64,000 nt of DNA from Aquisphaera giovannonii (lineage in GTDB: Bacteria; Planctomycetota; Planctomycetia; Isosphaerales; Isosphaeraceae): assembly GCF_008087625.1 (NCBI RefSeq), contig NZ_CP042997.1, positions 2,914,001 to 2,978,000 of the forward strand, given 5' to 3'. The position numbers were made by a program, and so were the translations under genes. Numbering within the stretch: the stretch's first letter is position 1; each line of letters starts with the position of its first letter. Under the pieces are notes generated by a model. The model saw only the letters and a list, made by a program, of their open reading frames with translations, was not told the origin of the DNA and made no database searches. Below are positions 11,053 to 29,019 of the stretch, piece after piece.

Positions 11053-12502
<1,450 letters not shown>

Positions 12503-16862: not shown

Positions 16863-19430
16863 ATGAAGCGACGACGAATTCCGGGGCTGGCTCTCTGCTT
16901 CCTCTTCAGTGCTGGGCCCCTGCTCGCCAGCGCTCAGCAAGTCCCCTCGGATGCCGACCCGGCCCGATCGCCGGACGACGGGCTCGCCAGCGAAATCCCG
17001 GCGAGCCGCCCCCTCGCGGCGGCCGAAGCCCCGGCACCGAGGCTGGGGAGGGTCGCGGATCAGCCGGTAAAGCCCCTCGCCGAAGGGCCGCTGCACGAGG
17101 CGTTCCTTTCGCCTCGCAAGGACGTGCTGCCGCCGGCGGTCCAGAAGACTCCACCGCCGCCGGTCGTCGAACGGCCCGCCGTGGACCCGCCTTCCACGAC
17201 GGCGGAGTGGATCGAGGGTTACTGGGAATGGGATCCCGGACGCAAGGACTTCGTCTGGGTCACCGGCACCTGGCGCATCCCTCCGCCCGGCCGGTTCTGG
17301 GTCAACGGCTACTGGAAGCGAGACCAGGACGGGTGGCACCGCGTGGCGGGATTCTGGAGCGATCGCAAGACCGATCGGCTCGACTACCGCAAGAACGGTC
17401 CGCCGCAGGATCGGCCCGACGAAGACCCCGGCCAGGCCCCGGCGGACGACACGTTCTACGTCCCGGGACAGTACTACCCCGATGGTGACGGAGTTGTCTG
17501 GAAGAAGGGCTTCTGGACGAAGGCCCAGGAAGGTTGGGCCTGGGTCCCGGCCCAGTGGGTCCATCAGGCCGAGGGATGGGTCTTCCAGGACGGCTACTGG
17601 GACAGGACCCTGGAGGACCGCGGAACCCTCTTCGCCCCCGCCCAGGTGGATCGTTCGGCGCCGCAGAACGGCGAAGTGACCTATCAGCCCTATGCTCAGG
17701 TCACGCCCGACCTTTACGGCCAGCTCAACGGGGCTTTCGGACGCCCCAACTCCTACTACGACGGCTATCCCGGCGTCTTCTATGACGAGGATGGGCGCTT
17801 CTACGGGTACGCGAACTACGGGACCCTCGGGGGCTACTATGGATACCTGGATTACCCCTACTACGGGGGCGGAGGCTATCCGTACATCACCACGCCGGTC
17901 TATGGCGGATACGGGACGACGCTGGGATATGGGCTGCCCTACGGCTACAGCCTGTGCGGCAACGCCCTGAGCTGCCTCGGAGGGTTCGGCTGCGGTATGC
18001 CGGTGCTTGGGCTGGGTTGGGGCGGGCTCGGGTATGGGGGCCTCGGCTGGGGAGGACTCGGCTACGGCGGACTCGGCTACGGCGGACTCGGCTGGGGCGG
18101 GCTCGGATATGGCGGGCTCGGCTGGGGTGGATTGGGCTACGGCGGACTCGGCTGGGGCGGATTCGGTTGGGGCTGGCCGATGTGGGGCCTGGGATGGGGC
18201 GGATGGGGCTGGGGTGGCCTGGGATGGGGCGGATGGGGCTGGGGTGGCCTCGGCTGGGGCGGGCTCGGCTGGGGCGGATGGGGCTGGGGAGGACTCGGCT
18301 GGGGCGGGCTCGGCTGGGGCGGATGGGGTTGGGGCGGCTGGAACCGCTGGTGCAATCGCTACCCCTATAGCCCCGGTCGGATGCATCAGGGAAACGGTCA
18401 GGGGCGAGGTGGAATCGGTCAGGGCGGCATGGCCGGGAATGGTCGCAGCCTCAACGGCAATTTCAACCGGACTGGGCTGGCCCATAATGTCGGCCAGGGC
18501 CTTGGCCGGGGCGGTGCGGGAGGCCCGGCCGCTCGGGGTGGCCACAACCAGGGGCTTGCCTTGAACCACCCGTCGCAGGGCTCCCTTCATCATGGCTTGC
18601 AGGGACCAGCGGCCTCGCGAGCGTACGGCAATCCCTTCCGGGGGAGCGGCAACGGGCTCGCGCATCATGCGGCCGGCGGACGCGGCCTTGGGGCCCAGGG
18701 CTCGGCGGCGGGACACGTCCAGCACGCCTCCTCGCTAGCCGGCGGCGCAAACTCCTTCCGACCGGGCTTCAATGGCGTGAACAACGCGACGGTCCACCAT
18801 AACGTGTCACGCCCCGCGTTCGCGGGGAACACGGCCGGGGCGATGGGCCACGGTGCGGGCGGGCTGAACCTAGGCGGTGTGAACGGTCAACACGCGGTCG
18901 GCGGTGCCTATGGCCGCTCCGGGGCCTGGAATGGGGCGCAGGCCGGGGGCGGCCTGGCGGGCGCCGGGCAGGGGGCGTTCCATCAGGGCGGCAATGCGGG
19001 GCTCGGCGGGATGGGCATGGCACCAGGCGGGCATCATGCTGGCGCGTCGGGGATGGGCACCGCCGGACTCGGGGGAGGCGTGCCCGGTGGCCATGCCCTG
19101 GGCGGAGGCTCCTATGCCATGCCCGGAGCGGGCCATGCCGCCGGCATGTACGGAGGTCAAGGAGGGGGCGGCTTAGGGGCCGCGGCCCCGCACATCGGCT
19201 CAGCGGGGTCGCTGGGCGGAGGCTTCGGCGCAGCTCCGCATTATGGCGGCTACGCCGGGTACGGCAGTTTCAGCGGCGGCCACGTGGGCGGTTGGGGCGG
19301 CAGTAGCTTCTCGGGCGGCCATGTAGGAGGGTTCGGCGGCGGCATGGGAGGAGGCCACATGGGCGGTTTCAGCGGCGGGCACATGGGCGGGGGCGGGCAC
19401 ATGGGCGGAGGCGGCGGCGGCCACCGCTGA
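16863..19430 (+). CDS. secreted YXWGXW-type protein with Gly/Trp/Tyr tandem repeats
   Basis: An 855-residue exported protein. It has a signal peptide cleaved after ASA (about residue 24) and a Pro-rich spacer. A Trp-rich middle (about 115-265) has repeated aromatic units (EGYWEWDPG, VTGTWRIPP, VNGYWKRD, AGFWSDRK, KKGFWTKA, QDGYWDRT) as in YXWGXW-repeat proteins. Then come a Tyr/Gly-rich zone, a tandem array of GLGWGG/GLGYGG units (about 385-495) and a Gly/His/Met/Ala-rich C-terminal third ending in GGHMGG units. It has no catalytic domain and is probably an envelope or matrix component. The ATG follows GGAGG at good distance. Expression is probably sigma-54-dependent. Confidence 0.85.
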   Translation: MKRRRIPGLALCFLFSAGPLLASAQQVPSDADPARSPDDGLASEIPASRPLAAAEAPAPRLGRVADQPVKPLAEGPLHEAFLSPRKDVLPPAVQKTPPPPVVERPAVDPPSTTAEWIEGYWEWDPGRKDFVWVTGTWRIPPPGRFWVNGYWKRDQDGWHRVAGFWSDRKTDRLDYRKNGPPQDRPDEDPGQAPADDTFYVPGQYYPDGDGVVWKKGFWTKAQEGWAWVPAQWVHQAEGWVFQDGYWDRTLEDRGTLFAPAQVDRSAPQNGEVTYQPYAQVTPDLYGQLNGAFGRPNSYYDGYPGVFYDEDGRFYGYANYGTLGGYYGYLDYPYYGGGGYPYITTPVYGGYGTTLGYGLPYGYSLCGNALSCLGGFGCGMPVLGLGWGGLGYGGLGWGGLGYGGLGYGGLGWGGLGYGGLGWGGLGYGGLGWGGFGWGWPMWGLGWGGWGWGGLGWGGWGWGGLGWGGLGWGGWGWGGLGWGGLGWGGWGWGGWNRWCNRYPYSPGRMHQGNGQGRGGIGQGGMAGNGRSLNGNFNRTGLAHNVGQGLGRGGAGGPAARGGHNQGLALNHPSQGSLHHGLQGPAASRAYGNPFRGSGNGLAHHAAGGRGLGAQGSAAGHVQHASSLAGGANSFRPGFNGVNNATVHHNVSRPAFAGNTAGAMGHGAGGLNLGGVNGQHAVGGAYGRSGAWNGAQAGGGLAGAGQGAFHQGGNAGLGGMGMAPGGHHAGASGMGTAGLGGGVPGGHALGGGSYAMPGAGHAAGMYGGQGGGGLGAAAPHIGSAGSLGGGFGAAPHYGGYAGYGSFSGGHVGGWGGSSFSGGHVGGFGGGMGGGHMGGFSGGHMGGGGHMGGGGGGHR
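18004..18345 (+). repeat. tandem 18-bp coding repeats (GLG[W/Y]GG)
   Basis: Repeated units such as GGACTCGGCTACGGC and GGGCTCGGCTGGGGC encode six-residue GLGWGG/GLGYGG blocks, with some GWGWGG variants near the 3' half. The array lies inside the gene above and is not intergenic. Confidence 0.85.
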
Positions 19431-25388: not shown

Positions 25389-25536
25389 TGCGGGCGGGGC
25401 AGGCGGATCGGGGATGCTTCCCGGGCTGACCTTGTCCCGGATTGTCAGGGCGACGAGCAGGCGATAGCCTGGGTTCGGCCGCATCGTGGCATCGTCGATG
25501 CCTTGCGTCGCGCCCTTCCTAGCCGGCAGCGCCAGC

Positions 25537-26613
25537 ATGCGAGAGATCCTCAGAGCCCTGGTCCAGTCGCTTCAGGCGGGTCGCGAGGCGATCGTCTGCC
25601 AGGTCGTGGAGACTCGAGGTTCCACGCCTCAGAAGGCCGGCGCGATGATGATCGTCGATCCCGAGGGCGGCCAGGTTGGTACGCTCGGAGGGGGCTGCGT
25701 CGAGAACGAGGTGAAGCAGAAGGCAATCCGCCACATCGGGACGCCCGGCGCGGCGATCCAGTCCTTCGTGCTCGACCACGACTACGCCTGGGCCGACGGC
25801 CTCATCTGCGGCGGCAAGATGGTGGCGCTGGTCGAATGCGTCCGCGGCGACGCGGCGTTGGCCTACTTCCGAGCCGAAATGGGTCTCCTCGAGCGGGGTG
25901 AGGGGTTCACCGAGGCCATCGTCGTGGAACCGGATCGGGCCGGGATTCCAGCGATGGGGCGGCGGTTCCTGATCACGCCCGAAGGCGAGATCGCCGGGAG
26001 CTGGCCCGACGGGCCCACGCCCGATGGACTGAAATCGCGGGCGGCCTCGCTCGCGGACCGGCCGCGGCCGGAGGTTCGCGGCGGCGTGGCCTGGATCCCG
26101 AGCCTGCCGCGGGTGCGTTTGGTCATCGTCGGTGCCGGTCACGTCGGGCAGGCCGTGGCCGAACTGGCCGCGAAGGCCGACTTTGACGTGTGGGTCGTCG
26201 ACGACCGGGCCCAGTTCGCGAACGCGGAGCGATTCCCGGCGGCGCAACGGATCCTCGTCGGTCCGATCGAGGACGTACTCCGCAATTTGGAAGTGACCCC
26301 TCAGACTTACTGCTTGATCGTGACCCGGGGTCATGGGCACGACCAGGAGGCCCTCCACCACCTGGCCCCGACGCCGGCCCCCTACGTCGGGCTGATCGGG
26401 AGTCGCCGAAAGATCCGCCTCATCTTCGAAAGCCTCGTGGAGTCCGGGATCTCCCGGGACGTGCTGGATCGCGTCGCGGCGCCGGTCGGCCTGGAGATCG
26501 GGTCGCAGACCGTGTCCGAGATCGCCGTCAGCATCGTGGCCGAGCTGATCGCGCGGAGGAATCTCGGTCGGAAAGGACAGTCCCCGTCATCACGACCCCT
26601 AGGCCCTGCATGA
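25537..26613 (+). CDS. xdhC: XdhC/CoxI-family molybdenum-cofactor insertion protein
   Basis: XdhC-type proteins bind molybdenum cofactor and deliver it, after sulfuration, to xanthine-dehydrogenase-like enzymes. The N-terminal XdhC_CoxI domain shows VVETRGSTPQKAGAMMIV and GTLGGGCVENEV; the C-terminal Rossmann-type domain has VIVGAGHVGQAVAELA, TRGHGHDQEAL and YVGLIGSRRK. The start ATG at 25537 (MREILRALVQ) is preferred over an upstream in-frame start at 25486. Its stop overlaps the next ATG (ATGA), so it heads the Moco operon. No xanthine dehydrogenase gene is in the window. Confidence 0.9.
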   Translation: MREILRALVQSLQAGREAIVCQVVETRGSTPQKAGAMMIVDPEGGQVGTLGGGCVENEVKQKAIRHIGTPGAAIQSFVLDHDYAWADGLICGGKMVALVECVRGDAALAYFRAEMGLLERGEGFTEAIVVEPDRAGIPAMGRRFLITPEGEIAGSWPDGPTPDGLKSRAASLADRPRPEVRGGVAWIPSLPRVRLVIVGAGHVGQAVAELAAKADFDVWVVDDRAQFANAERFPAAQRILVGPIEDVLRNLEVTPQTYCLIVTRGHGHDQEALHHLAPTPAPYVGLIGSRRKIRLIFESLVESGISRDVLDRVAAPVGLEIGSQTVSEIAVSIVAELIARRNLGRKGQSPSSRPLGPA

Positions 26614-27497
26614 CCCCTCGCAGACTCGACGCCATCGTCCCGGCCGCCGGTGAAAGTTGCCGCCTGGGTCGTCCCAAGCTGCTCCTGCCATTCGACGGGC
26701 TGCCGCTCATCGCCAGGGTGGTGACGGCGCTCCGCGACGGCGGGAACGACAGGGTCGTGGTCGTGTCACCCCCCATGGATTCGCCGGAGGGCCCCGCACT
26801 GGCCGAGGCCGCGCGTGCGGCCGGGGCCGTGGTGATCGCCCCGGCCGAACGCCCCCGCGAGATGCGTGGCTCAGTCCAGGCCGGGATCGAGTGGTTGAGT
26901 CGGTCCGGGCCACCGGCCGCGGCCATGCTGACGCCAGGCGATTCCCCCGGCCTGACTGCCCATGTCGTGCGCCAGGTTCGCGATCGATGGGAGGAGTCTC
27001 CTCGGTCGATCGCCGTTGGCGTCGCCGGTGGCAGGCGAGTCCACCCGACGATCCTCCCCTGGGACATCCTTGAGGAAGTGCCCCTCCTGCCCGAAGGCCA
27101 GGGGGTGAATGCGGCCTTGCGGGTCCATGAAGCCCGGCTCGTGTCAGTTCCCCTAGATTGCCCGGAGCTGGCCGAGGACCTGGACACTCCGGATGACCTC
27201 GACGCGTGGCGCACGCGACTGGGCGAGCGTCCGCCGAATTCGATGACCGTCACGGTCCGGCTGTTCGCCGTCGCCCGGCAGCGATCGGGTCGGCCGGAGA
27301 TTGCGATCGAAGTCCCTCGCGATGCGACGGTCGGCCTGCTTCGCGACGCCATCGCGCGGCAGCATCCCGAGCTCTCCGAGATTGCGGCCAGGGTCGCGAT
27401 CGCCGTCGACGACGAGTATGCGAGCGATGGCCACCCCATCTCGGCCGGCTCTCGCGTCGCCATCATCCCGCCGGTCAGCGGAGGGGAATGCCCATGA
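26610..27497 (+). CDS. MocA-like nucleotidyltransferase fused to a MoaD-like sulfur carrier
   Basis: Residues 1-200 are a MobA/MocA nucleotidyltransferase: VPAAGESCRLGRPKLLLPFDG is the nucleotide-binding loop and LTPGDSPGL holds the metal Asp. This enzyme class attaches CMP or GMP to molybdopterin. The same frame continues without a stop into a MoaD domain (about 212-295: MTVTVRLFAVARQRSG, DATVGLLRDAI, AIIPPVSGG). Separate MocA and MoaD proteins are the norm. The MoaD end is also odd: Gly-Gly (291-292) is followed by Glu-Cys-Pro, whereas MoaD normally stops at Gly-Gly for adenylation by MoeB. An internal start at ATG 27243 could release free MoaD. Confidence 0.85.
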   Translation: MTPRRLDAIVPAAGESCRLGRPKLLLPFDGLPLIARVVTALRDGGNDRVVVVSPPMDSPEGPALAEAARAAGAVVIAPAERPREMRGSVQAGIEWLSRSGPPAAAMLTPGDSPGLTAHVVRQVRDRWEESPRSIAVGVAGGRRVHPTILPWDILEEVPLLPEGQGVNAALRVHEARLVSVPLDCPELAEDLDTPDDLDAWRTRLGERPPNSMTVTVRLFAVARQRSGRPEIAIEVPRDATVGLLRDAIARQHPELSEIAARVAIAVDDEYASDGHPISAGSRVAIIPPVSGGECP

Positions 27498-27916
27498 TCG
27501 AGATCACCGATTCCCCGCTCGACCACGCGGCCATCACCGACGGGGTCCGCTCGAAGGCAGCCGGTGCCGTGTGCAGCTTCCTCGGGACGGTCCGGGAGAT
27601 GACCGGAGCCAGGCGTACCCTCACGCTGGACTACGAGGCCTATCGGGAGATGGCCCTCAAGAAGATGGCGGAGCTCGAGTCCGAGGCCCGGGCGCGGTGG
27701 CCGATCCTCGAGATCGCCCTCGTGCACCGCGTGGGCCGCCTCGACCTGGGCGAGATTAGCGTCGTCGTCGCGGTCAGCACGCCTCATCGGAGCGATTCAT
27801 TCGAAGCATGCCGATGGCTGATCGACACGCTCAAGGACGTGGTCCCGATCTGGAAGCGGGAGACCTGGGCGGACGGCACCGAAGAGTGGGTCCATCCGGG
27901 ATTGAACGCGACTTGA
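27494..27916 (+). CDS. moaE: molybdopterin synthase catalytic subunit
   Basis: MoaE pairs with MoaD to put two sulfurs on precursor Z. The 140 residues contain ICSFLGTVRE-like VCSFLGTVREM, LDYEAYREMA, HRVGRLDLGE, VSTPHRSDSFEACRWLID and WKRETWADG with the active-site lysines. GGAGG at 27480-27484 lies nine bases before ATG 27494 and three before ATG 27488, so 27494 is the start. That Shine-Dalgarno is also the Gly-Gly coding stretch of the upstream MoaD domain, and the two frames overlap by four bases. Confidence 0.95.
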   Translation: MIEITDSPLDHAAITDGVRSKAAGAVCSFLGTVREMTGARRTLTLDYEAYREMALKKMAELESEARARWPILEIALVHRVGRLDLGEISVVVAVSTPHRSDSFEACRWLIDTLKDVVPIWKRETWADGTEEWVHPGLNAT

Positions 27917-28020: not shown

Positions 28021-29019
28021 ATGGACGAAAACGGCCATACTCTGGTAGACGGCTTCGGCCGTAGGCACAACAACCTGCGGATCAGCGTGACGGACCGCTG
28101 CAACATCCGCTGCGTCTACTGCATGCCCGAGAATCCCGCGTTCCTGGAGCGGGAACAGCTCCTGAGTTTCGAGGAGATCGAGCGCTTCGTCCGCGTCGTC
28201 GTGCCGATGGGCATCGACAAGATCCGCCTGACCGGGGGGGAGCCCCTGGTGCGCAAGGGGCTGCCCGGGCTGGTGGAAAGTCTCTCGGCCATTCCGGGGG
28301 TCAGGGATATCGGGCTGACGACGAACGGCATCCTCCTCGGCCCGATGGCCGCGGCGCTCTGGGAAGCCGGGCTGCGTCGCATCAACGTGAGCCTGGACAC
28401 CCTCGATCCGGGCCGGTTCTTCGAGATCACCAGGCGACCGGGCGTGGAGAAGGTCGTCGAGGGGATCCTCGCGGCGAAGGCGGCCGGCTTCCACCCCGTC
28501 AAGGTGAATGCCGTCGCCATGAAGGGGGTCACGGAGGCGGACATCATCCCGTTGGCCCGGCTAGCCCGCGAGCACGGCCTGGAGATCCGGTTCATCGAGT
28601 ACATGCCGCTCGACGGCGGCACCTGGGAGCGCGGCAAGGTCCTGTTCGCGGCGGAAATCCTCGAGACGCTCGCCCGGGAGTTCGGTCCCCTGGCACCGGC
28701 CGAGCATCAGGACCCCCGCGCACCCGCGATGGATTACGACTACCTCGACGGCGGTGGCCGCGTAGGGCTGATCGCCTCGGTGAGCCGCCCTTTCTGCATG
28801 AGCTGCAACCGGATCCGCCTGACGTCCGACGGCCGGCTCCGCAACTGCCTGTTTGCCCTCGACGAGACCGACATCCGGCGGTTGCTACGAGGCGGGGCCG
28901 GCGATGACGAGATCGCCACCGTGGTCAGGGATTCGGTGCGAGGCAAGTGGGAGGGACACGAGATCAACTCGTCGAGATTCATCCAGCCCGAGCGTTTGAT
29001 GCACTCGATCGGAGGATGA
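28021..29019 (+). CDS. moaA: GTP 3',8-cyclase
   Basis: MoaA is the radical-SAM enzyme that starts Moco synthesis from GTP. It has the N-terminal cluster motif CNIRCVYC, the SAM-binding LTGGEPLVR, the C-terminal cluster CMSCNRIRLTSDGRLRNC and the C-terminal Gly-Gly (SIGG) needed for activity. It is 332 residues, the normal length. It follows moaE after the structured gap and ends the Moco cluster; moaC, moeA and moeB are not in the window. Confidence 0.97.
   Translation: MDENGHTLVDGFGRRHNNLRISVTDRCNIRCVYCMPENPAFLEREQLLSFEEIERFVRVVVPMGIDKIRLTGGEPLVRKGLPGLVESLSAIPGVRDIGLTTNGILLGPMAAALWEAGLRRINVSLDTLDPGRFFEITRRPGVEKVVEGILAAKAAGFHPVKVNAVAMKGVTEADIIPLARLAREHGLEIRFIEYMPLDGGTWERGKVLFAAEILETLAREFGPLAPAEHQDPRAPAMDYDYLDGGGRVGLIASVSRPFCMSCNRIRLTSDGRLRNCLFALDETDIRRLLRGGAGDDEIATVVRDSVRGKWEGHEINSSRFIQPERLMHSIGG

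Follow-up and report, generated by a model that had tools for sequence, protein, structure and literature searches.

A Capped C-Terminus on a MocA-Fused MoaD of a Planctomycete and Its Association with a Mec-Type JAMM Protease

Structure of the mocA-moaD Locus

The sulfur carriers MoaD and ThiS are taken, as a fixed rule, to end in a free Gly-Gly. The moaD studied here encodes a protein that ends in Gly-Gly-Glu-Cys-Pro instead of Gly-Gly, and a Gly-Gly end would be obtained only after trimming. This raises the question of whether the capped end is real and how such a protein could be matured. The window, which is the whole stretch of 64,000 nucleotides that was analysed, corresponds to G000:C1:2914001-2978000 of a 10.5 Mb genome, where G000 denotes the window genome.

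The sequence and the profile matches showed that xdhC, mocA-moaD, and moaE form a single overlapping string on the plus strand, with moaA downstream. The gene of the XdhC-family maturation factor (25486..26613; Pfam XdhC_C, E = 4.6e-42) ends in a TGA that overlaps the ATG of mocA-moaD (ATGA at 26610). The moaE gene for the large subunit of MPT synthase (27494..27916; MoaE, E = 7.5e-40) overlaps the MoaD stop, again by ATGA. The moaA gene for GTP 3',8-cyclase is located at 28021..29019 on the same strand and scored 386.6 bits with TIGR02666, above the cut-off. According to the Pfam and NCBIfam profiles, these three neighbours are all intact. The window also contains a gene for ThiC (11053-12462, minus strand), which acts in the pyrimidine step of thiamine synthesis, and an 855-codon ORF (16863-19430) with a coding-like GC3 and no Pfam match at 1e-8.

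The ORF at 26610-27497 had been described in the initial annotation as a MocA-MoaD fusion, and this was borne out. Direct reading showed a MocA-like nucleotidyltransferase joined in frame to MoaD, with residues 8-173 matching NTP_transf_3 (E = 3.7e-28) and residues 216-292 matching ThiS (E = 4.5e-15). The MocA/MobA-like domain (26610..27242, plus strand) had its best NCBIfam match with TIGR03310 (MocA), at 95.7 bits against an equivalog cut-off of 186.45, and the adjacent xdhC fits MocA. The MoaD core (27243..27485, plus strand) runs from M1 to G81 and ends in PPVSGG. It scored above the curated cut-offs of both PF02597 (56.4 vs. 22.5 bits) and the NCBIfam moaD model TIGR01682 (66.8 vs. 66.15 bits).

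The final codons of mocA-moaD are GTC AGC GGA GGG GAA TGC CCA TGA. They place Gly-Gly at 27480-27485, the Glu-Cys-Pro cap at 27486-27494, and the stop at 27495-27497, and the ATG of moaE starts from 27494. The reading of this end in the initial annotation was thus correct. The same-genus genome G002 shares the fusion and the ATGA overlap but has another three-residue tail (SRP), which rules out a sequencing error or frameshift behind the tail. A second, normal MoaD in the window genome was also ruled out. Only three ThiS-family proteins are present, of which the other two are a CysO-like carrier ending in GG and a ThiS-ThiG protein. PPVSGG is invariant across a 19-sequence MoaD alignment. The capped end of MoaD in the window genome is confirmed as real and beyond chance.

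A test for internal initiation at 27243 had been suggested, and the sequence does not favour such initiation. An ATG is present at this position, the start of MoaD, and no Shine-Dalgarno-like sequence was seen upstream of it. No ATG, GTG, or TTG lies in the linker or near the MoaD start in the MocA-MoaD ORFs of four relatives (G029, G015, G217, and G233). In these genomes MoaD is therefore made solely within the fusion, indicating that the MocA-MoaD fusion is real in this group. Independent initiation of MoaD alone is unlikely on both grounds.

C-Termini of MoaD in Planctomycetes

MoaD genes were located in relatives and in class and phylum samples with the window MoaD or the 19-row profile A1. 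The DNA around each gene was fetched and the end of the frame was read by a script, which gave 192 complete ends. A stop at Gly-Gly was found in 140/192, and 52/192 extend beyond it. The extended MoaDs comprise 42 tailed proteins, with tails of 1-21 residues and one of 180, and 10 in-frame MoaD-MoaE fusions. Among the relatives, G007, G024, and G041 carry the MoaD-MoaE fusion. The 180-residue extension occurs in G012 (L029), contains an MshEN domain (E = 9e-7), and reaches the moaE overlap; this genome is JAMM-positive.

The search of relatives for the same extension, as the initial annotation had proposed, gave a divided answer. G002 and others among the 42 tailed MoaDs carry such ends, whereas MoaD of the same-genus G001 and of others stops at Gly-Gly. 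The initial annotation had taken relatives with a normal end as evidence against the tail. This argument fails because the close relatives ending in Gly-Gly also carry JAMM, and the tail is therefore optional there.

The residue right after Gly-Gly in the tailed MoaDs was S (15), A (7), G (6), T (4), or others. A functional tail motif was rejected, since this residue is variable and no sequence is common to the tails. Comparison of related pairs showed that tails diverge faster than cores. The MoaD cores of G010 and G027 are identical at 60/80 positions and their 18-residue tails share 6 residues; those of G009 and G026 are identical at 69/81 positions and their tails are hardly alignable. The draft genome G035 has two MoaD loci (L031 and L034) with cores identical at 73/78 positions and diverging 18-residue tails, and it may be a strain mixture.

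JAMM Protease and the CysO-Type Cysteine Pathway

The initial annotation compared the tail with QbsE and proposed a search for a JAMM/Mec-type protease gene. Such a gene was found in the window genome at G000:C1:8668755-8669204 (L123:6756-7205). It is intact, matches PF14464 with an E of 1.1e-20, and contains the metal motif HxHx(7)Sx(2)D as HSHPRWQAIPSRTD. By sequence match, the protein resembles the solved JAMM chains 2kks, 2kcq, and PfJAMM1 5ld9. The gene shares an ATGA overlap with a cysteine synthase gene and has the same neighbour in most relatives of the window's family, f1. It lies 5.7 Mb from moaD, and the genes are unclustered. The CysO-like carrier at 3.32 Mb ends in IIPAVAGG and is located between threonine synthase and a MoeB/ThiF-like E1. 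This gene set of JAMM, cysteine synthase, CysO-like carrier, and E1 would fit a CysO-CysM-Mec pathway.

The bond cut by Mec+ lies after the Gly-Gly of CysO, so the position at which a Mec-type enzyme acts is already the one that trimming requires. In the CysO/CysM/Mec+ pathway of M. tuberculosis, Mec+ hydrolyses the CysO-cysteine adduct (PMC3227635). The CysO-like carrier is mostly uncapped in the relatives. Capped forms were seen in G033 (L107, GGSV), G024 (L113, GGSV), and G041 (L092, GGSR), all JAMM-positive, and G024 and G041 have the capped carrier together with a MoaD-MoaE fusion. Two more ThiF genes of the window genome, both outside the window (G000:C1:1067186-1068840 and 3663300-3664881), each stand just before a weaker JAB gene. 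These pairs look like separate systems and are possibly ubiquitin-like conjugation operons.

Prok-JAB (PF14464) was then searched in the genomes of the MoaD survey, with E<=1e-10 as the line for JAMM-positive genomes. Extended MoaDs were found in 52/104 JAMM-positive and 0/88 JAMM-negative genomes (192 MoaDs; Fisher p = 5e-18), counts that overstate independence at the genome level. JAMM presence clusters by lineage. When counted by family, the proportions were 14/29 and 0/22 (p = 7e-5). The association was also seen after removal of family f1 (21/64 vs. 0/88, p = 1e-9) and outside the class (15/36 vs. 0/25, p = 1.3e-4). Moving the line to 1e-8 gave 52/112 vs. 0/80, and moving it to 1e-13 gave 51/99 vs. 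1/93, the one being G110 with a JAMM E of 6.3e-13. All 10 MoaD-MoaE fusions (10/10) were in JAMM-positive genomes. On the MoaD tree, whose 81 residues are too few to give power, a test of independent pairs had 4 supported pairs, of which 1-2 were concordant and none was opposite; significance cannot be reached with so few. The comparison with QbsE and JAMM-type proteases holds, with an intact JAMM in the window genome and tails confined to JAMM-positive genomes.

ThiS-ThiG Fusion

A second carrier with an internal Gly-Gly was found in the window genome at 7.27 Mb (L122:4707-5858, minus strand). Here ThiS is fused to ThiG: the sequence reads VTLVGGG, followed by APAAEHEAP and a complete ThiG domain. 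In the class sample, 60/62 genomes with fused ThiS-ThiG were JAMM-positive, compared with 1/62 unfused ones. The two fused genomes without a clear JAMM, G278 and G287, have assemblies 94% and 83% complete, and they represent either assembly gaps or true exceptions. In family f3, ThiS is separate in G051 and G231, both without JAMM, and in G231 it stops right after GGG. G262, a member of f3 from the genus of G051, is JAMM-positive and combines a fused ThiSG with the MoaD tail AAP.

Proposed Mechanism and Alternative Explanations

We consider it probable, at about three chances in four, that the Mec-type JAMM of the CysO pathway also trims the MoaD and ThiS precursors and has thereby freed their C-termini to drift. 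The mocA-moaD ORF would yield a precursor of MoaD in which Glu-Cys-Pro caps the Gly-Gly. The Mec-type JAMM, a zinc protease encoded elsewhere beside the cysteine synthase gene, would cut after Gly-Gly. Adenylation and thiocarboxylation of the exposed glycine would come next, and the MoeB/ThiF-like enzyme whose gene adjoins CysO is the most likely catalyst. Together with MoaE, the matured MoaD would then supply the sulfur in MPT synthase. In the cysteine pathway itself, JAMM would ordinarily remove cysteine from CysO-Gly-Gly-Cys. Because JAMM would always be present, selection for an exact stop at Gly-Gly would be lost. After that, MoaD tails could drift, often into translational overlap with moaE, or MoaD and MoaE could fuse, and ThiS and ThiG could fuse likewise. 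We infer the cleavage after Gly-Gly, the identity of the enzyme, and the order of events from what was observed, namely the cap and where it occurs, its co-occurrence with JAMM, the intact protease motif, and the gene context.

The proposal can be widened to one housekeeping JAMM that is kept for cysteine synthesis and acts as the general maturase of CysO, MoaD, and ThiS. Such an enzyme would have repeatedly released C-termini, and the caps and both fusion types would be one phenomenon. We lean only slightly towards this wider form. If true, it would link three pathways through one protease, with cysteine, molybdenum cofactor, and thiamine synthesis all depending on it once caps or fusions arise. 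The lineage clustering of JAMM, the ThiSG-fused G278 and G287, and the distance of the JAMM gene from moaD count against a role of JAMM.

The cap might instead be removed by a general carboxypeptidase or another protease, with the JAMM co-occurrence reflecting shared ancestry of both traits. We regard this as unlikely. The distribution of JAMM by lineage and the lack of power in the tree-based test are in its favour, but the association persists by family and outside the class. An exopeptidase does not fit caps and fusions that reach 180 residues, whereas an endoprotease acting at Gly-Gly does. The protease of MoaX in M. tuberculosis was reported as unidentified (PMC4326299), which leaves room for another enzyme; against this, DRJAMM performs the same cut on MoaD-MoaE of Deinococcus radiodurans (DR2607), leaving a C-terminal Gly, and is required for MPT synthase there (PMC8832034). 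It is very improbable that the window MoaD is no longer a sulfur carrier, or that the uncut protein works as is. Its encoded C-terminus does lack the free Gly-Gly required in E. coli MoaD. However, the invariance of PPVSGG, the intact moaE, moaA, and xdhC alongside, and the lack of a second MoaD argue for a working carrier, and MoaX must be cut after Gly82, the second Gly, for activity (PMC4326299).

The initial annotation had pointed out that the bases of Gly-Gly form a Shine-Dalgarno-like sequence for moaE, and this stands: GGAGGGG at 27480..27486 (plus strand) covers the Gly-Gly codons and lies 7 bases before the moaE ATG. The tail could accordingly exist only because moaE must start just downstream, and overlap with moaE is indeed common in tailed MoaDs that have moaE downstream (27/39) and rare in untailed ones (2/118). 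As the sole cause, this is less likely still than removal by another protease. The tails in G009, G026, G264, and others terminate 40-65 bases upstream of moaE, and many tails are far from moaE or have no Shine-Dalgarno at Gly-Gly. The JAMM-negative G081 has a MoaD that overlaps moaE and yet has no tail. The same need exists in JAMM-free genomes, where tails are absent, so the Shine-Dalgarno is not the permissive cause. It is a partial explanation: the need for it is a possible driver, and translational coupling to moaE may favour tails once they are tolerated. The interpretation in the initial annotation is therefore partly supported, being right on JAMM and partly right on the cause.

Trimming by the Mec-type JAMM, the reading we prefer, bears on how carrier genes are read. 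The survey suggests that the Gly-Gly rule is strict only without JAMM (0/88 exceptions) and that half of the JAMM genomes depart from it. Annotators would thus have reason to expect MoaD tails and not to correct them.

Comparison with Known Systems

A capped carrier with a JAMM, and the cutting of MoaD-MoaE by a JAMM, are already published. In the searchable literature we found no description of a housekeeping MoaD that is both capped and fused to MocA, nor of a strict co-occurrence rule tying MoaD and ThiS to JAMM, and a search that missed most subscription journals gave no paper on MoaD caps in planctomycetes. MoaD-MoaE fusions were reported in 775/33,957 bacterial genomes and in some archaea (PMC11237513).

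One close likeness is to the capped carriers of Streptomyces platensis, which require the JAMM PtmS1 (PMC6006322). In PtmS2/PtmS3-PtmS1 and QbsE/QbsD, Gly-Gly is followed by one to a few residues and becomes exposed only with the help of a genomic JAMM (PMC6006322); for the window MoaD this requirement is a prediction. These carriers all belong to natural-product pathways, and the genes of at least PtmS2 and QbsE lie in a cluster with that of their protease, an arrangement typical of qbs and ptm cassettes but not essential, whereas the carrier here is a housekeeping MoaD fused to MocA with its JAMM far away on the chromosome. DRJAMM likewise matures a MoaD to a Gly end for MPT synthase (PMC8832034), as may happen here. 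DR2607, however, is a full MoaD-MoaE fusion, and the window MoaD has a short cap that overlaps a separate moaE. MoaX shares the cleavage after the second Gly (PMC4326299), which is presumed for the window MoaD, but it too is a fused MoaD-MoaE, and the window MoaD is separate from MoaE. Mec+ is an obvious candidate for the MoaX protease.

The Thermus TtuC system resembles the arrangement proposed for the window genome in that one E1 is common to TtuB, MoaD, and ThiS and a JAMM is present (PMC3980101). Unlike our proposal, no shared trimming of capped precursors was described for it. The parts of the CysO/CysM/Mec+ system (PMC3227635) are all present in the window genome, which has the CysO-like carrier, the E1-like enzyme, and, adjoining the JAMM, a cysteine synthase. 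The difference is that the genes here lie in separate places and that, in our proposal, MoaD and ThiS are further substrates of the JAMM.
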